Shown one piece after another: positions 35,377 through 62,418 of a DNA stretch of 64,000 nt. This DNA is from Bacteroidota bacterium (GTDB taxonomy: Bacteria; Bacteroidota; Ignavibacteria; Ignavibacteriales; Melioribacteraceae). The DNA is taken from NCBI GenBank assembly GCA_018829205.1, contig JAHJUE010000011.1:1-64000 (forward strand), read 5' to 3'. Every line of letters begins with the position of its first letter. The stretch's first letter is position 1. The notes beneath the pieces were generated by a model. That model was not told the origin of the DNA and searched no databases. It was given only the letters and a program-made list of their open reading frames with translations. Both the position numbers and the translations under genes were made by a program.

Positions 35377-35431
35377 ATTAGTATTTTTTACGTAATTTTT
35401 AATTATAGTTTTAGAATAAAGCCGTTTCGAA

Positions 35432-37138
35432 TTAATTTTTAATAAGATATCTTTTTATTTTTTGAGTAGTTGTTTTTTCAAATTCATTATCTCTTATATG
35501 AAACTTAGTTATTCTTTTATATGCTGCCAGCTGTTTATTGCACTCTTTAATTTCATTATCAATAATTTCGTTAATCATCTCAATGTTTATTTCAAATCCT
35601 TTTGTATTTGAAAATTCAATAAAGGCCTCGGCATCCACAACTATTTGAGCGGCTATTACCTCATCATGTTTGGAATCTTCTTCCCCATAAACAATTGATT
35701 CTAAAATAAACGGACTTCTATTTAGAATATCTTCAATTTCCTCAGGGAAAACATTTTTCCCGCTTCTTGAAATAATTACATTTTTCATTCTTCCGTTAAT
35801 ATGCAAAAAACCTTCTTCATCAAAATATCCAATATCACCGGTTTTAAACCATCCGTCTGAAAATACATCTTTCGTAAACTTTTCATTTTTATAATAACCA
35901 AGCATAACACTATCACCCTTAGCCCATATTTCACCGCTGCCGTTTTCATCAGGGTTGTTAATTTTAATCTCAATACCGGGTAAAGGAATTCCCGCGGCAT
36001 TATCTTTGAAAAAATCCAATCTATTTAATGCTAAAATGGGAGAAGTTTCTGTTAGACCGTAACCTTGAATAAAATTAAACCCGAATTCACGAAGACCCTT
36101 TGCAACTAAAGGATCAGGCGCCGCGCCCCCGGCAATAAATATTCTAATATGTCCGCCGAATTTGTTATGAATTTCCTTAAATATTTTTTTCTTTAAATCA
36201 TTTGCTCCAAATTTTCCTGCTAAATCCGTAATCTTAACAAGCGCAGGAACAACAACCGATTTTACTTTATCTTCTTTAATAGCTTTAGAAATTCTTTTAA
36301 ACATTTTATCGTATAATAAAGGGACGCCCAGCAATATAGTTGCTTTAACTTTCTGTATATCATCAACCACTGTTTTAAGCGAACGGGCATAGTACACAGA
36401 GGCGCCGCAATACAATGGACACAGCATTCCGCATGTACATTCATAAGTATGATGCATAGGCAGTACGGAAAGGAATCTGTCTTCGGGAAAAATAAACAGC
36501 ATTTTAACCATAGCCGTAAGGTTTGATGAAATATTTTTTTGACTCAGCATTACACCTTTAGCTCTTCCTAATGAACCTGAAGTAAAAATTATTTCCGCTA
36601 GTTCATCAGGATTAATTTTAGGAAGATCATTTTTATTGACGGGTTCATTTTCATCAATTAAATTTTTCATTTTCAGGAAGCCGGAACCGCTTTTGAAATT
36701 ATCCATACATATATAATGTTTCAGTTTTTTTAATGAAACTTTATGTTCTTCAAAAAGAGAAGCGAAATTTTCCGTGAAAATAATAGCTTCGGCATCCGAT
36801 TCGTGAATAATATTTAATATTTCGTTTTCGGTTAAATTTTTATCAATGGGCACAGCAACAAAATTAAAACACATAATTGTTAAATAACTCAAGGCCCATT
36901 GCACTCTGTTTTCTCCGATAATTGCAATATGAGCTCTTTCATTAATTCCAAGAGATTTTAATGCAGCTCCAAATCTTAATATATTATCCAATAGTTCAGT
37001 ATAATTTAGTCTGCTGATCTGCGTATTTGTCAAATCTTCCAGAGCTAGTCCGGAGTTATATTTAGCAGAACTTTGTAATACCATATCCTGCAGCGAATAA
37101 ATATTAGGCACATCATAAAGTTTAAAATTTGGTTTCAT
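35432..37138 (-). CDS. Long-chain acyl-CoA synthetase (AMP-binding enzyme)
   Basis: 568 residues of the ANL superfamily: HTYECTCGMLCPLYCGA, IFIAGGAAPDPLVAKGLREF, the A5 motif GYGLTETSP, and A7-A8 (GDIGYFDEEGFLHINGRMKNVI). A10 ends near TTTQKIKRY. The ATP-loop is FTSGSLGRAKGVMLS, where TSGTTGxPKG is usual. It should activate a fatty or other carboxylic acid to acyl-CoA via an acyl-adenylate. It is a single gene downstream of a small intergenic gap from pepD. Confidence 0.88.
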   Translation of the reverse strand: MKPNFKLYDVPNIYSLQDMVLQSSAKYNSGLALEDLTNTQISRLNYTELLDNILRFGAALKSLGINERAHIAIIGENRVQWALSYLTIMCFNFVAVPIDKNLTENEILNIIHESDAEAIIFTENFASLFEEHKVSLKKLKHYICMDNFKSGSGFLKMKNLIDENEPVNKNDLPKINPDELAEIIFTSGSLGRAKGVMLSQKNISSNLTAMVKMLFIFPEDRFLSVLPMHHTYECTCGMLCPLYCGASVYYARSLKTVVDDIQKVKATILLGVPLLYDKMFKRISKAIKEDKVKSVVVPALVKITDLAGKFGANDLKKKIFKEIHNKFGGHIRIFIAGGAAPDPLVAKGLREFGFNFIQGYGLTETSPILALNRLDFFKDNAAGIPLPGIEIKINNPDENGSGEIWAKGDSVMLGYYKNEKFTKDVFSDGWFKTGDIGYFDEEGFLHINGRMKNVIISRSGKNVFPEEIEDILNRSPFILESIVYGEEDSKHDEVIAAQIVVDAEAFIEFSNTKGFEINIEMINEIIDNEIKECNKQLAAYKRITKFHIRDNEFEKTTTQKIKRYLIKN

Positions 37139-49593: not shown

Positions 49594-50618
49594 TAGTACG
49601 TTCTTTTACGAATAAATACTTTGGAATACTTATTAATATTTTCTATTGCTTTACCTGCACCTCTTACAACCGCAGTTAAAGGATCTTCGGCAACATGAAC
49701 AGGAAGATTTGTTTCCATTCTTATTCGTTCGTCGAGGCCTTTAAGCAGAGCTCCACCGCCAGTTATCATAACTCCTCTATCCAATATATCGGCTGAAAGT
49801 TCAGGAGGCGTTCTTTCAAGGGTTTGTTTAACGGCTTCAACTATCTGAGAAATATTTTCATTAAGCGCATCTCTTATTTCAACAGAACTTACCTCGGCTG
49901 TTTTGGGAATACCCCCTACAAGATCACGTCCTTTAACCTGAATAGTTATTTCTTCTTTAAGCGGAACAGCTGATCCAACCTCGCATTTAATTGCTTCTGC
50001 GGTTCTTTCACCAATTAATAAGTTATAATTCTTTTTAAAGAACTGCATAATGGCATTATTCATTTCATCGCCAGCAATACGGATCGATTCTTCATTTACA
50101 ATTCCCGAAAGTGCAATAACGGCAATTTCAGTCGTACCGCCTCCAATATCAATAATCATACTACCGACAGGGGCATCGACTTCAATTCCAATTCCAATTG
50201 CAGCAGCCATTGGTTCGGCAATTAAATGCACTTCTTTTGCACCAGCATGTTCGGCTGCATCGCGGACGGCTCTTTTTTCAACTTCGGTTACGCCGCTAGG
50301 CACAGCGATAATTATTCTTCTGCTAGAAAAACTTCCAGTATTTACCTTTTTAATAAATGCTCTAATCATTCCTTCGGCAATCTCAAAATCGGCAATCACA
50401 CCATCGCGCATAGGCCTTGAGACTCTTATTTCTCTATGTTCTCTTCCCTGCATCTCCTTGGCTTCATTACCCAACGCAATAATTTTTTTAGTATTTCTAT
50501 CAAACGCTACTATAGAGGGCTCATTAAGAACAATTCCTTTTCCTTTTACAAAAATCAGAGTGTTCGCGGTACCCAAATCAATTGCAACATCGTTTGAAAG
50601 AAAATCAAAAATACCCAT
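49593..50618 (-). CDS. mreB: Rod-shape-determining actin homologue MreB
   Basis: 341 residues: DVAIDLGTANTLIFVKGKGI (phosphate 1), IIDIGGGTTEIAVIALSGIV (phosphate 2) and GGGALLKGLDERI (adenosine). It forms membrane-bound filaments guiding elongation. The start has AGAGGAAGT upstream. It lies eight bases after purH on the same strand and begins the five-gene cell-shape cluster. Confidence 0.97.
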   Translation of the reverse strand: MGIFDFLSNDVAIDLGTANTLIFVKGKGIVLNEPSIVAFDRNTKKIIALGNEAKEMQGREHREIRVSRPMRDGVIADFEIAEGMIRAFIKKVNTGSFSSRRIIIAVPSGVTEVEKRAVRDAAEHAGAKEVHLIAEPMAAAIGIGIEVDAPVGSMIIDIGGGTTEIAVIALSGIVNEESIRIAGDEMNNAIMQFFKKNYNLLIGERTAEAIKCEVGSAVPLKEEITIQVKGRDLVGGIPKTAEVSSVEIRDALNENISQIVEAVKQTLERTPPELSADILDRGVMITGGGALLKGLDERIRMETNLPVHVAEDPLTAVVRGAGKAIENINKYSKVFIRKRTY

Positions 50619-50626
50619 ACTTCCTC

Positions 50627-52144
50627 TTAGTGTTTAAAGTTTCTTATGCCTGTAAATATCATTGTAAGATTAAGATTGTCGGCTGCCGCTATTACATCTT
50701 CATCACGAACGGATCCTCCGGGCTGAATTACAGCTTTAATTCCGTGCGAAGCAATTTCCTCAATACCGTCCGGAAATGGAAAAAAGGCATCGCTTGCGGC
50801 TACCGCGCCTTGCAAATCGTGTCCGAATTGTTTCGCTTTTGACGCGGCAATTTTAGTAGAATCAATTCTGGACATTTGTCCTGCGCCAACTCCAATTGCT
50901 TTTTTGTTTTTAGTAAAAACTATTGCGTTAGATTTTGTATGCTTGCAGATTACCCAAGCAAATTTTAATTCTTCAAATTCTTCTTCAGAATATTTCCGGG
51001 AAGTTACTACTTTTAATATATCATTATTTAATTTAGAATTATCTTTTTCTTGTACTAAAAGTCCGCCGGGAATGTTTTTAATCTGACCTTCATTTGTATC
51101 TGCAGATTTCAAAGTCTTTAATAATCTTCTGTTTTTCTTTTTCTTTAATAACTCAAGAGCTTCCGGTTCAAAATCAGGCGCTGTAATTATTTCAAGGAAG
51201 ATTTCATTCAGCGCTTCGGCTGTTCTTAAATCTACCTTACCGTTAAATGCTACTATTCCTCCGAATGCAGAAGTTGGATCGCACGAAAGTGCTTGAGTAT
51301 AAGAATCAAAAATATTTCCGTAAGAAGCTGCTCCGCATGGATTTGTATGTTTCACAATAACGCATGAATTTGAGTCAAGGTCATTAACAAGTTCAACTGC
51401 TGCGGTTAAATCCACAATGTTGTTGTAAGATAATTCTTTTCCGTGTATTATTTCAAAATAATCGTAAAAATCGCCGTACAAAAAAGCTTTCTGATGCGGG
51501 TTTTCACCGTATCTCAATTCATTTTGAAGTTTATAATTAAATCTAATCTCAGTTTTATCCAATTTAAATTCATCTTCAAAATAATCAGCAATTAAACAGT
51601 CGTAATATGCCGTATGTGCGAATGCCTTAGCGGCTAGTTTCTCCCTGGTTTCATCTTTAACTTCACCTTCTCTCAATTGTTCGAGGAAGTCATTATATTG
51701 ATCAGGGCTTGTAAGAACAGAAACATATTTATAATTCTTAGCGGCGGCGCGAATTAGGCTTGGTCCGCCAATATCAATATTTTCGATTTTTGTTTCAACA
51801 TCGATATCATTTCGTTTAACAACTTGCGGAAAAGGATAAAGGTTTACGCAAACAATATCAATCGGCACTATATTATTTTCCGATGCTTCTTTCATATCGG
51901 CTTCATTATCCCTTCTCATAAGGATTCCGCCGAATATTGAAGGCTGAAGAGTTTTAACTCTGCCTGAAAAGATTTCAGGAAATTTTGTAAAATCGGCTAC
52001 TTCCGTACAACTGATATTATTTTCTTTTAGTAATTTGGCGGTGTTACCAGTAGCTAATATTTCATAATTAAGGCCGGAAATTTCTTTCGCGAATTCAACT
52101 ATATTTGTTTTATCTGAGACACTAATCAGCGCAAATTTTTTCAA
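50627..52144 (-). CDS. purH: Bifunctional AICAR transformylase/IMP cyclohydrolase
   Basis: 505 residues. The N-terminal IMP cyclohydrolase (about 1-190) has ALISVSDKTNIVEFAKE and DIGGPSLIRAAAKN. The C-terminal transformylase has LRYGENPHQKAFLYG, VKHTNPCGAA and GDAFFPFPDGI-like ASDAFFPFPDG. It carries out the last two steps of IMP synthesis. The start is TTG with GGAG five bases upstream. purN precedes it by 12 bases. Confidence 0.96.
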   Translation of the reverse strand: MKKFALISVSDKTNIVEFAKEISGLNYEILATGNTAKLLKENNISCTEVADFTKFPEIFSGRVKTLQPSIFGGILMRRDNEADMKEASENNIVPIDIVCVNLYPFPQVVKRNDIDVETKIENIDIGGPSLIRAAAKNYKYVSVLTSPDQYNDFLEQLREGEVKDETREKLAAKAFAHTAYYDCLIADYFEDEFKLDKTEIRFNYKLQNELRYGENPHQKAFLYGDFYDYFEIIHGKELSYNNIVDLTAAVELVNDLDSNSCVIVKHTNPCGAASYGNIFDSYTQALSCDPTSAFGGIVAFNGKVDLRTAEALNEIFLEIITAPDFEPEALELLKKKKNRRLLKTLKSADTNEGQIKNIPGGLLVQEKDNSKLNNDILKVVTSRKYSEEEFEELKFAWVICKHTKSNAIVFTKNKKAIGVGAGQMSRIDSTKIAASKAKQFGHDLQGAVAASDAFFPFPDGIEEIASHGIKAVIQPGGSVRDEDVIAAADNLNLTMIFTGIRNFKH

Positions 52145-54365: not shown

Positions 54366-56014
<1,649 letters not shown>

Positions 56015-56098
56015 TTATTTTTTGAATGCACAAAGATATAAAAAATATTTTACATGTCTATAAATAAATGAAATATTTTAAAGAATATTATTCTTTTT

Positions 56099-59000
56099 TT
56101 ATGCTTTTCTTAAATCCTTTACTAAACCAGTATATTTTTTCTCAATTTTAAAACCAAATTTGTAAAAATATTCAGGTCTGAAAAAACCTGTGGTAACAAA
56201 TTCAATTTTTTCGGCAAGCTGCCTGTTAAATAATTCATTCATTAACTTATCGCTAATTCCAAGTCTTCTGTATCTTTCAGAAACCACGATTTTATCCATA
56301 TGCACAGAATTTTCTGAAGAACGATAATAAAACAATCCGCCAATTATATATCCCCTATCAGAAATAGCCACTAAAAATTGATGTTCCGCTTTAAATGTAA
56401 CCATTAGATTTTCTTCGACAAATAATTGATGAAGCCTTGAAATTTCTTTTGGCGAAACAGGTTTTCTTATTGAAAAAGGATTCCCGTCGTAGTCTTGATA
56501 TTGCACAACTAAATTTACCGAAGGCGCTCCTTCAGATTTGGAATATATTAATTCAGCATAATCTGCAGGTTTTAAATGAGGGTATGTTAAACGTGAAATA
56601 AAATATTCTTCGTCTCCAGAAATTACAAGTTCATTTTTAATATTTGAAAATTTGGAAAGAGCGTCTTCATTTGAAATTTCTTTTCTTCTTTGCTCCGTAA
56701 TAATTTCTTTTAATATACTTTTTAAATTTTTTGTAGAGTTCTGGAATACAGTTTCATAAAAGAACCGGGTTCTTGTAGCAGGAAAGCTCAATTCAACATC
56801 AGCAAGTCTGTACGTTTCATATAGTTCATGCAGCATTTCTGCCTGTGCTGTTGCGGCTGCTCCGCCGTTAAGTTTAAACCATCTGTGAAATCTTTTAATA
56901 GCAAAATATAAACGTTTCGGGAGGAAACCGTTATTTTCAATATTTGTCAGAAATTCTTTTAAACTATTTTCAATAACATCGGAACTTTCCAAGTTATATA
57001 ATTTTTCTTTTTCAATTAAAAGATCCGACAATACTTTAACACCTTTTTCCGTCCCTTCAGCGTTTATTATTCCCGAAAAAACATAATTCCAGATCGTATC
57101 TCTTTTTAAGAATGGGAATTCAATTTCAGTCGCCTTAATAAAATGTTCATTTAGTTTTTCTAAGAAGATAAAAATAGAATCCGACTCAATACGATAAGAT
57201 ATCGAAGTAAGTCTTGTTCCCGTTTGATAATCATGCGAAGGAATAATAATATTCTGATAAGAAGGCTTTTCAATCATCATTCTATAGCCAGTAAGTTTCC
57301 AGAAATTATAATAGGCGGTTGCGGCATTCCACACAAAGAAAGGCCATAAATGATACAAACGAATTTCCTGATCATCTTTTTTTCTTACGGAACGTTTGAT
57401 AAATTTTTGAACTGTATCGCCTGATATATATTCTTCGCTCCAAAGATCATATTCTTCCCAGTATCCCCCAAAATCTTCTGCGAGAGTTTGTCCGGATACT
57501 TTTGATCCCGCTAATATCTGCCAGTTTACTTCTTGCTGAACATCTACGAGCTTCAATTTTTTATTTAAATTAATAACAAGTTCGAAAGCTCCCTGAAATC
57601 TTGTTTGAACCGTAACTCTAAAACTAGATTTATATTCAAAATCGCCAATATGACTAATCCAAATACCTGAAGGTAAAATGTTGTTTAGCTGAATAATAAT
57701 TCCGGTTGAAAAGAGAAATATTGCTTCGCGCAGAACAGGCAGCTCACTAATTGCCTTCGATATCCTAAGCTTATTTTCTTCCAAAATATCGGGTTCAAAA
57801 GTCAGCACATCATTCCAGCCGTATTCTTCACCTGTTTCAATATCCACAGCAACGCTTTTATTTTCGCCAAGCCATGATCTAAATTCATTTCTGACCCTTG
57901 TTCTTAATTTATTTGCCAATTCGGAAACTTCCGGCCAATCTTTCACCAATTGGTAGCGCACAAAAATCTGTCTTATTTTTTTATACCGTGCAGGATGTTT
58001 AATACCCAATACGCATAATAAATTTAACAATCCGGTTAAGGAAGAATTGCGTAAATCTTTTCTTTGATATTTTTCCTGAAATTCTTTTTGAATTTGTAAT
58101 TCAACTGTTTCCAGGTATTCAATTCCTTTAACGTTATTAACAAATTCATTAATAACCGAATCATCCAGTAAGTTTTTATCTCTTAACAAATATATATCAA
58201 ATAAAGAATTCAGCTCCGGTGTTTTTAAATACTTGGAGGTTATTAGGAACATTTTCCTGCGCACGTTTAGATAAGTGCTTAACTGCGGACGCAAAAGAAT
58301 CTGCTTCGTAAGTTTATAAATTGGGAGAGAGTCATCATACATTAATTTGTTCAAATAGTTTGCGGCAAAAAATGAATATTCTTTTTCACCGCTTTGAAGC
58401 TGCACTACGGCTATATTCAATCCGTTTATTGAAATTTCATTTTCCGTATCAATTTTTTGAAGTTTTAAAAACTCATATTCATTTTGATCTATTACATCTT
58501 CCGTGCTGTAGAATTTAATTTTACTGTCGGGATCGCTTTGCCTGTACCATTGAAAAATTGAATCGCCAGTGAATTTCAGCAGCGAATAATTCCCAACCCA
58601 ATAAATAGGATTTGTAAAAAATATTTGCAGATCAATATAACGTGATGTTAACTGGTATATAAAACTTCCGATTTTTATAAGAGATTTTTTTCTGTCAATA
58701 ACTGTAATTTCCAATTCGGAGTTTAATTTTTTAATTACAATTTTCCCTTCGGCTGATTTAATATCACCGCTAAGACATCCTTTCTCTCTTAAAAACCAGT
58801 TTGGAATTCTGATATCAAGTCCGCCGACAAAAAGATCGATATGATCTTTCTGATACATTTCATTAATTAGGCTTGAAAAATTATCTTCAATAACTCTTCT
58901 TTTGTATGTTCCTTTGGCGGTAAGTTCATGGAATTCATCTGAAATTGCTCTGTCGATAATTCTAAAATCTACAATTCTTTCAAAAGGAGCTAAGAAATTA

Positions 59001-60886
59001 TTCACAGCAGCTACAACGGATGCGTAATAATCACGCGTTTGAGATTCATCAAATTCCGCGACCTTTATTTTTTCACTTTCGTAATTCGGATATAATAAAA
59101 TTGTGTTAAACGGTTTATGATCGCCGACAAGGAAAACCTGTTTTACGAGATCAAAATCCCTGAAAAGATTTTCAATTTTTTGAGGCGCAATAGTTTCCCC
59201 TTTAATGTTTTTATAAATTTCTTTTTTACGGTCGATGATTTCAATAAAATTATTTTCATCTCGTTTCATTATATCACCGGTTGCAAACCATCCATCACTA
59301 TCGAAAGTTTCTTCGTAGCTATCACCGAAATAACCAGTCATAACATAATTACCTCGAATTAATAGTTCGCCGTCATCAGCGACCTTTATTTCAACACCGG
59401 GTAATTCTTTGCCTAAAGAATTTTCGATGTACTGTCCGGGAGGAGTCATAGTAATTCCTCCGGTAGCTTCTGTCATTCCGAACCCGCTCATTAATTCCAC
59501 GCCGTATTTCTGGAAGAACATAAAAATATCCGGAGGCAGATATCCGGCTGCAGAAAGTCCCCATTTTAAGTTTCCCCCGGTAATCTCATCAACCTTATTT
59601 TTTATCGAGGTTTCATCCTCAAATTCTATATCAATCTCAGAAGTAATTCTTTCGTAAAGCTGCATCCATTTTTTGGGGATACTTATAAATATTGAGGGTT
59701 TTACCTGCTGCATATTTGATACCATTGTTTCAGCGGAAGGATTTTCCATAAAAACATATTCTGCTCCCCAGAATATTGCGCCCATCATTTCAAGGTAGCG
59801 GCCGAAAGTATGAAACAATGGAAGAAAAGCAAGATACCTGTCTTTATCGTTTATTTTAGGGAGCGCCATAGCACGGCAGAATCTTTTGTAAACAATATTT
59901 GCTTGCGAGAAAACAATTCCTTTTGGTTCGCCGGTTGTACCCGAGGTAAACATTATTGTAGCGGTTGATAAAGTTTTTATCCCGCTTTTGATTTCATCTA
60001 AAAATTCTTTCTGATTTTCGTTTCCTTTGTTTAAAAAAGTATCAAATGAAATTGTCCACTCTTCCGCGCTTTTACCTTCGAGAAGCACAACCTTTTTGAG
60101 ATGTGTTAAACTATTTTTAATTGATTTTAATTTTGCCAGCTGTTTTTCGTCGGTAATAAAAACAAGTCCGGCTTCCGTTTTATTTAAAATATATAAAATG
60201 TGATGCGGAACCGAGTTAGCGGGAATCATTACATTTACAATTCCGGAAGTTAAACATGCAAGATCAAGTTTAACCATTGTTAAACTGTTTTCTAATAAAA
60301 AAGCGGCTTTAAAATTTTCCCCGGAACATTCTTTTACCTGGGCAGCCATAGCAAGACTGTATTTTTCAACTTCTTTTGAAATTGAATCCCATGTGTAATT
60401 AATTTCTTTAGTTCCTTTTATTATTTTAAATAAAGCTTTACTGCCGTAGTCATTTATTCTCTGTTTAAAAAGTTTCTCAACTGTAAAATTTGAAGCTGAA
60501 ATAAGATTATAAATTAAACTGTCCCATTTCCTTTCATCATAAATTCTAACAAGAAACTCAGAATACCTGAACACATTTAGGTAGTCGTATACAATTTTTT
60601 CAATTTCATTACTGTACTTGTTATTTAAATAATTCCCAAAATCAAAAAAGATTTCCGTGCTAATTTCTTTCATTAAATCATTTACAAGCTGACTCGGGAT
60701 AATTGCTTTAAAAATCTGCCGGATTAATTTCAGTTCTTCAGCATTACTTGCGAAATCATTTTTGACCGCATCTTTTAGTATAAACTCAAAATCGGCGCAA
60801 AGTTGTTTTAAACTAGATTCTTCAATAGAAGCCTTACCGCCAAGCAGCAATTTTAGAAACTCTGTTTGATTATTCATATTATTCAA
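56099..60886 (-). CDS. Giant fusion: acyl-CoA synthetase domain, long unassigned middle, C-terminal GNAT acetyltransferase
   Basis: 1595 residues in one uninterrupted frame. Residues 1-135 are a helical lead. Residues 140-640 are an AMP-binding synthetase with MFTSGTTGEPKGIVFSQ (near 311), AFLPLFHTFGRYLEMMGA, ELMSGFGMTEATGGITMTPP, TGDIMKRDENNFIEIIDRKK and a late GTYKRR. About 680-1430 has no family I recognise; SGQTLAEDFGGYWEEYDLWS and HLWPFFVWNAATAYYNFWK are its most distinctive stretches. The last 150 residues form a GNAT domain with HMDKIVVSERYRRLGISDKL, FVTTGFFRPEYFYKFGFKIE. A tail activating an acid and a GNAT head suggest transfer of an activated acyl group. The gene stands alone, with gltA next upstream. 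Confidence 0.8.
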   Translation of the reverse strand: MNNMNNQTEFLKLLLGGKASIEESSLKQLCADFEFILKDAVKNDFASNAEELKLIRQIFKAIIPSQLVNDLMKEISTEIFFDFGNYLNNKYSNEIEKIVYDYLNVFRYSEFLVRIYDERKWDSLIYNLISASNFTVEKLFKQRINDYGSKALFKIIKGTKEINYTWDSISKEVEKYSLAMAAQVKECSGENFKAAFLLENSLTMVKLDLACLTSGIVNVMIPANSVPHHILYILNKTEAGLVFITDEKQLAKLKSIKNSLTHLKKVVLLEGKSAEEWTISFDTFLNKGNENQKEFLDEIKSGIKTLSTATIMFTSGTTGEPKGIVFSQANIVYKRFCRAMALPKINDKDRYLAFLPLFHTFGRYLEMMGAIFWGAEYVFMENPSAETMVSNMQQVKPSIFISIPKKWMQLYERITSEIDIEFEDETSIKNKVDEITGGNLKWGLSAAGYLPPDIFMFFQKYGVELMSGFGMTEATGGITMTPPGQYIENSLGKELPGVEIKVADDGELLIRGNYVMTGYFGDSYEETFDSDGWFATGDIMKRDENNFIEIIDRKKEIYKNIKGETIAPQKIENLFRDFDLVKQVFLVGDHKPFNTILLYPNYESEKIKVAEFDESQTRDYYASVVAAVNNFLAPFERIVDFRIIDRAISDEFHELTAKGTYKRRVIEDNFSSLINEMYQKDHIDLFVGGLDIRIPNWFLREKGCLSGDIKSAEGKIVIKKLNSELEITVIDRKKSLIKIGSFIYQLTSRYIDLQIFFTNPIYWVGNYSLLKFTGDSIFQWYRQSDPDSKIKFYSTEDVIDQNEYEFLKLQKIDTENEISINGLNIAVVQLQSGEKEYSFFAANYLNKLMYDDSLPIYKLTKQILLRPQLSTYLNVRRKMFLITSKYLKTPELNSLFDIYLLRDKNLLDDSVINEFVNNVKGIEYLETVELQIQKEFQEKYQRKDLRNSSLTGLLNLLCVLGIKHPARYKKIRQIFVRYQLVKDWPEVSELANKLRTRVRNEFRSWLGENKSVAVDIETGEEYGWNDVLTFEPDILEENKLRISKAISELPVLREAIFLFSTGIIIQLNNILPSGIWISHIGDFEYKSSFRVTVQTRFQGAFELVINLNKKLKLVDVQQEVNWQILAGSKVSGQTLAEDFGGYWEEYDLWSEEYISGDTVQKFIKRSVRKKDDQEIRLYHLWPFFVWNAATAYYNFWKLTGYRMMIEKPSYQNIIIPSHDYQTGTRLTSISYRIESDSIFIFLEKLNEHFIKATEIEFPFLKRDTIWNYVFSGIINAEGTEKGVKVLSDLLIEKEKLYNLESSDVIENSLKEFLTNIENNGFLPKRLYFAIKRFHRWFKLNGGAAATAQAEMLHELYETYRLADVELSFPATRTRFFYETVFQNSTKNLKSILKEIITEQRRKEISNEDALSKFSNIKNELVISGDEEYFISRLTYPHLKPADYAELIYSKSEGAPSVNLVVQYQDYDGNPFSIRKPVSPKEISRLHQLFVEENLMVTFKAEHQFLVAISDRGYIIGGLFYYRSSENSVHMDKIVVSERYRRLGISDKLMNELFNRQLAEKIEFVTTGFFRPEYFYKFGFKIEKKYTGLVKDLRKA

Positions 60887-61070
60887 ATTTTATTTTTATC
60901 AAAATAATTTATGTTTGGGAAACGGTAAAATATTCTTGAAAAGATAATTACTATTATGGAATAGTTAAAATAAAAATCCGTACATCAATTTCCATAATCA
61001 CACGAAGAATAATTAAAAAATAATTACTCTTAGCAGCGACTTAAAAAGCAAGTTTTCACTTTAAACAAAA

Positions 61071-61094
61071 AAGGGATGCCATTCGACATCCCTT
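61071..61094 (-). terminator. gltA: Terminator after gltA
   Basis: AAGGGATG and CATCCCTT form an 8-base-pair stem with an eight-base loop. On the minus strand it ends in a T-run (TTTTTTG). It lies 20 bases after the gltA stop. Confidence 0.8.
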
Positions 61095-61113
61095 ATCAAT
61101 AAAAAAAACAGCA

Positions 61114-62418
61114 TTATTTAATTCCGGCAATAGCTTCCAGCATATCTGTGGTTAAAGATTTTGGTCTTTCCAGCGGATAACCCAAAGCGCGGTCCCAAAC
61201 AATATTTGCGCATACGCCAAGTGCTCGTCCTACTCCGAAAAGAACTGTATAGAAGTCATATTCTGTTAATCCGTAATACCACTGAATAACACCGGATTGC
61301 GCATCAACATTAGGCCAAGGATTTTTTGCTTTTCCCTGTTCAACTAATATCGGTGGAACTACGTTATATAAAACATCAACATATTTAAATAACGGATAAT
61401 CAGGGAGATGTTTTAAACAGAAACCCCTTTGCGCGCTGTAACGCGGATCAGTTTTTCTTAGTACAGCGTGTCCGAATCCGGGAATTACCTGTCCGCTATT
61501 TAATGTTTCCCAAACAAATTTTTTCATTTCATCTTCAGTAGGAACCTTACCGCCCATTTGATCCATTACTCCCTGGAGCCAACGAAGAACTTCCTGATTT
61601 GCCAATCCGTGCAGCGGGCCTGCGAGTCCGTTAAGCATAGCAGAATTAGCGTAATATATATCGGATAATGCGCTTGCTACTAAATGACCAGTATGAGCGC
61701 TTACGTTTCCGCTTTCATGATCGCTGTGAAGAAGGAAATACATTCTGGCAACATCGTCGTAAGGTTTTGCAATTCCCATCATATGAGCAAAGTTAGCTCC
61801 CATATCCAGATGCGGATCCGGTGCAATAATATCACCTTCTTTATATTTCCATCTGTAAATAAACGCCGCGATCTGGGGCAGTTTGGCTAAAAGATTTAAC
61901 GCATCTTCATAAGTAGAATCCCAATAATCATTTTTGTGAATACCTTCGTTATATTTTTGGACGAAGACAGATTCACGCTGCATTGAAACAACAGCCGCGG
62001 AAAGCATAGCCATTGGATGAGAATCTTTTGGCATTGCTTTTAAGACATCAAAAACATATTCCGGTACCATTTTACGGTCGTTGAATTCTTTTGCTACCGA
62101 TTCCGCTTCTTCTTTGTTCGGAACATCGCCCGTTAACAATAAATAAAAGAAAGCTTCAACCAAGGGCATTTCTCCGCCTTCGGCCGGCGGGAGTTTTTCA
62201 AGTACTTCCGGAATTGTAAATCCTCTGAAACGGATACCTTCCATCGGGTCAAGATACGAGATATCAGTTGTTAATGATTTAACACTTCTCATTCCGCCGA
62301 TAACCTGACTAATTGTTACTTCGCCGACTTTAACTTCACCGAATTCTTTCAATAATCTTGTAGTACGCGGTCTGTGAGCTTCGATCTTTTCGAAAAGTTT
62401 TTCTTTTAAAGATACCAT
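61114..62418 (-). CDS. gltA: Citrate synthase, mitochondrial-like type
   Basis: 434 residues. The sequence resembles the eukaryotic mitochondrial enzyme more than the usual bacterial ones: GGMRSVKSLTTDISYLDP with EGIRFRGFTIPEVLEKLP near the N-terminus. Catalytic residues are present: His in GPLHGLANQEVLRWLQ, His in GFGHAVLRKTDPRY, Asp in NVDAQSGVIQWYYGLTE, followed by FYTVLFGVGRALGV. It condenses oxaloacetate and acetyl-CoA into the citric acid cycle. GGAGGATGT precedes the ATG. It fits functionally with korAB in this window. Confidence 0.95.
   Translation of the reverse strand: MVSLKEKLFEKIEAHRPRTTRLLKEFGEVKVGEVTISQVIGGMRSVKSLTTDISYLDPMEGIRFRGFTIPEVLEKLPPAEGGEMPLVEAFFYLLLTGDVPNKEEAESVAKEFNDRKMVPEYVFDVLKAMPKDSHPMAMLSAAVVSMQRESVFVQKYNEGIHKNDYWDSTYEDALNLLAKLPQIAAFIYRWKYKEGDIIAPDPHLDMGANFAHMMGIAKPYDDVARMYFLLHSDHESGNVSAHTGHLVASALSDIYYANSAMLNGLAGPLHGLANQEVLRWLQGVMDQMGGKVPTEDEMKKFVWETLNSGQVIPGFGHAVLRKTDPRYSAQRGFCLKHLPDYPLFKYVDVLYNVVPPILVEQGKAKNPWPNVDAQSGVIQWYYGLTEYDFYTVLFGVGRALGVCANIVWDRALGYPLERPKSLTTDMLEAIAGIK

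Follow-up and report, generated by a model that had tools for sequence, protein, structure and literature searches.

The window analysed here, the whole stretch of 64,000 nucleotides of DNA, carries on its minus strand, in this order, hpnE, a citrate synthase gene, the fusion gene that is the subject of the present study, pyrG and a gene for a TPR protein. The fusion gene (56099-60886) is an open frame of 1595 codons and a stop, which runs from a TTG start at 60886 to the stop codon at 56099-56101, and the plus strand of the same interval is rich in stop codons. An ATG stands at the fourth codon (60877) and is probably the likelier start, so that the native protein would comprise 1592 residues. 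The preliminary description of this DNA had placed a frame of 1595 residues at 56099-60886 with no strand given, and had read in it a complete AMP-binding synthetase joined to a GNAT domain, with about 750 residues matching no family between the two. The frame was found on the minus strand, the two domains were borne out by Pfam matches and by the residues of the ANL motifs, and the interval from about residue 690 to 1440 is without a credible Pfam match.

The Pfam search of the whole protein gave eight matches, which apart from AMP-binding, AMP-binding_C_3 and the main GNAT match comprise weaker GNAT models and WIF (E 0.06). The best 25 of the 101 families matched in NCBIfam all lie within the synthetase part and all score under their own cut-offs; therefore, none of them names the fusion protein. 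The gene family is a conserved one that is unnamed in the libraries searched.

Relatives of the gene were sought in samples of genomes from one phylum and in a scan of public genome contigs from all phyla, which reaches close relatives only. Among 58 close relatives, the window's own genome counted with them, 38 have a match running into the middle of the protein, 34 near full length and four (G011, G019, G025 and G029) in pieces. A profile of the middle matched 55 of the 391 genomes in the sample of the class, one of them marginally, and 22 of the 395 genomes in the sample of the phylum, where two of the matches are weak and lie outside the class. The class matches sit in frames of 1431-1654 codons, the exceptions being G011 and G657 (pieces at contig edges), G450 (pieces on two contigs) and G487 (a marginal match in a frame of 97 codons, E 3.9e-4). 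The two weak matches outside the class belong to one family (f31), and one of them, in a separate open reading frame of 363 aa, was judged spurious by eye; apart from these two, no stand-alone middle was found in the 395-genome phylum sample. Plasmids, phages and, with one search pattern, viral contigs gave no match to the middle. With the GNAT part alone as query, 24 of 38 genomes were matched, in long frames except for G011 at its contig edge, together with one frame of 157 codons (E 1.1e-5). The eleven named records carry the labels Melioribacteraceae, Ignavibacteria or Ignavibacteriales, Ignavibacteriae, Chlorobiota and Melioribacter roseus, with one labelled Deferribacteres. The distribution is patchy: within the family to which the window belongs, several of the genera sampled lack the gene. 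As the matches in the close relatives show, the middle is conserved coding sequence.

With identical proteins counted once, 39 distinct proteins were obtained, and 48 after the addition of nine more; two fragments (L027 and L031) were omitted from the trees and the region statistics, which are based on 46 sequences. The alignment of the 48 proteins falls into two subfamilies of the same layout, a near group of 32 window-like proteins and a far group of 16, the frames of which are about 1520-1580 codons long. Mean identity between the near and the far proteins is 38% in the ANL domain, 26, 14, 18 and 18% in the four successive segments of the middle (M1-M4) and 25% in the GNAT domain. The near group was recovered in each of three trees, built separately from the ANL, middle and GNAT parts, with support values of 0.99, 0.86 and 0.65, respectively (weakly, in the case of the GNAT), which suggests a single old fusion that has probably been inherited as a unit. 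The splits common to any two of the parts number 18-21 of 43, which is under half, and the far group is not monophyletic in the trees, which we think comes from rooting inside that group.

The protein begins with a poorly conserved N-terminal region (residues 1-149; 60440..60886, minus strand), in which identity is 30% among near proteins and 18% between near and far proteins. The large domain of an AMP-binding (ANL) synthetase follows (residues 160-520; 59327..60409, minus strand; Pfam PF00501, 3.8e-56), scoring 191 bits against a cut-off of 29.9, and after it the ANL C-terminal domain (residues 561-680; 58847..59206, minus strand; PF23562, AMP-binding_C_3, 4.6e-13), scoring 50.1 bits against 20.8. 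Residues T314, S315, G316, T318, G319, K322 and E473 are present in all 46 sequences that cover them, and D538, R553 and K555 in all 47; we take these residues to represent the core motifs A3, A5, A7 and A8. Over the ANL domain, 102 of 535 columns are at least 95% invariant among 46 sequences, 20 of the 102 being D, E, H, K, C or S.

A lysine of the C-terminal domain, K658 (58913..58915, minus strand), is kept in 48 of 48 sequences, and we infer that it is the A10 lysine with a catalytic role. The assignment stays at that level because its distance to the following Arg differs from what we take to be the usual A10 spacing and because one of the two paralogues of the same genome that could be aligned differs in this respect: the T-P-K placement is the same in the 610-aa paralogue (L154) and different in the 579-aa paralogue (L155). 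Since the former has the same placement, the spacing is not necessarily a sign of decay. Elsewhere in the window (35417-36937, minus strand) lies a gene for another acyl-CoA synthetase paralogue, which is shorter and shares 27% identity with the ANL domain.

The GNAT domain lies at the C-terminus (residues ~1477-1580; 56147..56458, minus strand) and scores above or at the cut-offs of three Pfam models: PF13508 (28.0 bits against 27), PF00583 (24.4 against 20.7) and PF13673 (23.6 against 23.6). Its P-loop, R1540-x-x-G1543-x-S, was compared with the pattern R/Q-x-x-G-x-G/A; R1540 is present in 46 and G1543 in all 48 of the 48 sequences, and the last position is G or A in all 16 far proteins and S in 31 of the 32 near ones. 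Position 1531 is acidic in all 32 near proteins and in 13 of the 16 far ones; it was aligned by eye with what we take to be the general base of GCN5. That histone acetyltransferase is also the nearest solved GNAT in the PDB profile search (E 0.0035). Both ends of the chain, the synthetase and the GNAT, are probably catalytically active.

Between the two ends, the middle was divided into four segments, all on the minus strand: M1 (residues 690-800; 58487..58819), the best-conserved segment, with conserved P695, W697, L725, G740, Y744, P760, W763, G765, N766, F772 and W780; M2 (residues 801-1010; 57857..58486), the least conserved; M3 (residues 1011-1260; 57107..57856), which at residues ~1045-1240 bears a weak and unproven likeness to a degenerate protein kinase; and M4 (residues 1261-1440; 56567..57106), with conserved W1336, Y1359, R1372, T1379 and P1436. 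Profile searches of the PDB with the middle and its segments gave nothing below E 0.017, and the adhesin and YcgR-labelled matches (the latter with E 0.037-0.049) were treated as chance. Pfam searches with 38, 27, 27 and 12 aligned members gave no family in more than three members among the matches listed, which for the set of 38 are 25 of 35; the strongest match, Yos9_DD (best 0.00025; 2 of 27 members, and 3 of 12 in another set), was likewise treated as chance. NCBIfam matched eight families with the 38 members, each in one member (best 0.029), PHROGs gave for three proteins a best match of 0.0096 to a family of unknown function, and PADLOC gave no match for two proteins. A tandem GNAT or a degenerate ANL domain within the middle was considered and rejected, as a comparison of profiles of seven parts of the protein showed only matches at the borders of overlapping segments.

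In the middle, 19 of 751 columns are at least 95% invariant among the 46 sequences, mostly W, G, P, Y and R, and S1228 is the one D, E, H, K, C or S residue among them. Counts of unaligned motifs in the middle gave HxxxxD in 20 of 46 sequences and the others in 0-2 of 46. The evidence that the middle is structural or regulatory is modest, and comes from this pattern of residues. Profile searches of the middle by itself, which had been put forward in the preliminary description as a check, found no well-described family, and the suggestion made there that the middle may hold a second activity is so far unsupported, with a single D/E/H/K/C/S residue among the 19 invariant columns.

The passage of an activated acid to an amine, as suggested in the preliminary description, is plausible. 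Taken together, these features are compatible with a self-feeding bifunctional acyl-CoA synthetase and N-acyltransferase, with a middle that would serve chiefly as scaffold or regulator, a reading to which we give about an even chance. In its favour, the parts are kept together in the relatives that carry the gene. In the first step, the ANL domain, as judged from its intact motifs, would adenylate a carboxylic acid with ATP and make the CoA thioester. In the second, the C-terminal GNAT would, from its family membership and its P-loop, move the acyl group from the acyl-CoA to an amine acceptor, for which a small molecule, a lipid headgroup, an amino sugar or a protein lysine are candidates. 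In the third, the middle of about 760 residues may act as the scaffold or regulator that joins the two active sites and perhaps selects the acceptor. This role is proposed for the middle because it is the fastest-diverging part of the protein and has hardly any conserved residue that could act as acid, base or nucleophile. Points against the reading as a whole are the S that ends the P-loop in 31 of 32 near proteins, the spacing of K658, the lack of a constant pathway neighbour in the loci compared and the sharing of under half of the tree splits between any two parts. If one chain both activates and transfers, it would provide a one-protein route from a free acid to an amide, which would be of interest for N-acyl lipids, signals and protein acylation in Ignavibacteria-like bacteria. 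The middle is in itself a family of about 750-760 residues without assigned relatives.

The best-surviving alternative, which we regard as unlikely, is that the GNAT acylates K658 in the A10 region of its own or a partner chain and thereby switches the synthetase off, the protein being a one-polypeptide counterpart of AcuA and AcsA. The acid conserved at the presumed general-base position and the closeness to GCN5 speak for this alternative, and GCN5 as the nearest solved GNAT would fit a regulatory role equally well. Conservation of the A10 lysine decides nothing here, because catalysis would keep that lysine anyway, and self-regulation alone has no obvious need for an insert of 760 residues. 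A precedent is found in Bacillus subtilis, where, in the available portion of the source, the GNAT AcuA is a negative regulator of AcsA that binds this AMP-forming enzyme and inhibits it by acetylating the A10 lysine K549 (PMC11255334). As in that pair, an AMP-forming acyl-CoA synthetase is combined here with a GNAT; AcuA and AcsA are described in the same portion as two separate proteins (PMC11255334), whereas a single chain with an extra middle is encoded in the window, and its regulation is a proposal. If the protein does regulate itself, it would offer a model, within a single chain, of how acyl-lysine controls acyl-CoA synthetases.

Improbable, and more so than self-regulation, is the alternative that the middle houses a third enzyme, or else a kinase-like domain that binds nucleotides, and in this way modifies the acyl product or gates its transfer. 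It arose from a resemblance to the hinge and the catalytic loop of kinases at residues ~1100-1300, which was first seen by eye and recorded ahead of the profile tests. In HHalign comparisons, a profile of 18 kinases is matched by residues ~1117-1219, with the elements in the order of the kinase fold (alpha-C, hinge and the N of the catalytic loop), and the near and far profiles, run separately, agree in register. The score of 24.4-25.5 exceeds those of 22 unrelated families (maximum 21.6), of the reversed profile (11.3) and of 20 column shuffles for each of two kinase profiles (maximum 21.8). The kinase STK4 was found in the same register by the PDB profile search, as a weak lead (E 0.65 and 0.35).

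Against these observations, the match falls short of significance (P 0.007-0.012; 0.13-0.15 with the far proteins alone), and the control segment M1, for which no kinase match was expected, scored 22.8-23.8 against the same kinases (P 0.006-0.0085), its P of 0.0061 comparing with 0.0071 for the best result of the kinase-like region. Two true relatives, the kinase and APH profiles, score 28.7 against each other, and APH fails to match the kinase-like region (P 0.076 and 0.091). The best PDB matches of residues ~1045-1240 are bone sialoprotein-binding adhesins (E ~0.02), whereas kinases have E values of at least 0.35. In the register that we aligned, 12 of 32 near proteins and none of 16 far proteins have a D at the HRD-like position. 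As a profile result, the kinase likeness of residues 1045-1240 does not reach significance and does not surpass one of the controls. A bolder form of the idea, in which a kinase-like (pseudokinase) module between an AMP-forming synthetase and a GNAT would control the passage of the acyl group, the proteins then being self-feeding acyltransferases of a kind not described before, met here in a single bacterial class, is held to be just as improbable.

A protein acetyltransferase of the type I Pat kind, whose synthetase-like part would serve the GNAT solely by sensing CoA or acyl-CoA, has the domains in the same order, with the synthetase-like part first and the GNAT last (PMC6456759, PMC8556138), and is very unlikely, as the synthetase-like domains of the type I and type II enzymes are NDP-forming and inactive in the sections available of these sources, whereas the domain here is AMP-forming with complete motifs and is strongly constrained, 102 of 535 ANL columns being invariant. 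The five published types of GNAT lysine acetyltransferases, as far as those sections go, include synthetase-like fusions, which are NDP-forming and described as inactive (PMC6456759, PMC8556138). Pat/PatZ (YfiQ) resembles the present protein in that a single chain begins with a long part similar to a synthetase and ends with a GNAT, and differs in that its domain is given there as NDP-forming and inactive (PMC8556138, PMC6456759), while the domain in the window is AMP-forming and about 760 extra residues precede the GNAT. Neither the eight Pfam families nor the best 25 of the 101 NCBIfam families include an NDP-forming match; the synthetase domain matched is AMP-forming instead.

Returning to the preferred reading of a synthetase that feeds its own N-acyltransferase, the known enzymes that resemble its parts differ from the whole. 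The ANL domain is similar to those of long-chain acyl-CoA synthetases, including the 610-aa paralogue of the same genome, and to the A domain of carboxylic acid reductases (CAR), and in the PDB search a solved CAR chain covers positions 13-529 of the 534 in the ANL profile (E 4.2e-36), with luciferases also scoring. CAR has carrier and thioester reductase domains, whereas Pfam found neither here and the unique middle and the GNAT stand in their place; a GxDS pattern is present within the middle in just 2 of the 46 sequences. The OlsF and OlsB-type aminolipid N-acyltransferases of Bacteroidetes likewise place an acyl group onto an amine, and OlsF is also a fusion, for which the portion available of the source mentions no acyl-activating domain (PMC11631085). 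As opposed to these enzymes, the GNAT matches of the fusion gene in Pfam are to general GNAT models. No described enzyme in which an AMP-forming synthetase is fused to a GNAT appears among the matches listed in the open-access literature, nor does an identical layout, which is in keeping with the earlier view of the gene as a candidate for an undescribed enzyme. The available text of the Melioribacter roseus genome paper (PMC3534657) contains none of the terms 'acyl-CoA', 'long-chain' or 'AMP-dependent', and that of a further paper (PMC9318685) none of 'acyl-CoA', 'AMP-binding' or 'GNAT'.

The surroundings of the gene were also compared. A survey of species with the same domain order and of their gene neighbours, as outlined in the preliminary description, gave the 34 nearly full-length relatives among 58 (own genome included) mentioned above, with citrate synthase as the commonest neighbour and no constant partner gene among the neighbourhoods compared. 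For this count, loci with at least 1.2 kb upstream were used after the removal of duplicates: of 29 distinct near loci, 19 have a citrate synthase gene immediately upstream in the same orientation at a distance of no more than 400 bases, and 21 have it within about 1.25 kb, compared with none of 16 far loci. In the window, a terminator-like hairpin of 10 pairs with a T tail (61071..61094, minus strand) lies between the citrate synthase gene and the fusion gene, six terminator-like sites being observed in 55900-61300 against 3.4 +/- 1.9 expected by chance. Among relatives without the fusion gene, the hpnE-gltA order is kept in eight of eight and pyrG is within reach in five of eight; a ninth such genome, 81% complete, gave no citrate synthase match. 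Citrate synthase was therefore rejected as a pathway partner, and its adjacency is best read as an inherited, shared chromosomal slot, because the hairpin separates the two genes and the relatives without the fusion gene keep hpnE-gltA. A common transcript with citrate synthase is possible where the gap is short, as with the 37 bases in L008 and L024.

Several other observations were made in these neighbourhoods. In the comparison of window 61114-62418 with L180-L187, L035 and L017, relatives without the fusion gene have other open reading frames, mostly of about 300 aa, between citrate synthase and pyrG, and in L035 and L017 the fusion gene is separated from citrate synthase by a frame of 311 or 335 aa. 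Two open reading frames of about 280 aa, of one cluster, stand upstream of hpnE in L024, L025, L026, L028, L029, L033, L035 and L036, and we read them by eye as squalene synthase genes of the hpnC/hpnD kind. In the far family f2, a membrane acyltransferase similar to HGSNAT (L038:10873-12009; PF07786, 2.8e-16) is encoded divergently beside the far-type gene, with equivalents in L039, L041 and L045, in four of four loci; these were placed by clustering, the family search having been made for L038 only. In one f11 locus (L088:9648-11818), an LpxC-FabA fusion and an LpxA-like acyltransferase lie downstream on the same strand. Elsewhere in the window, an open frame of 195 aa on the plus strand (50050-50637) is antisense to a gene read by eye as mreB and is probably a chance frame.
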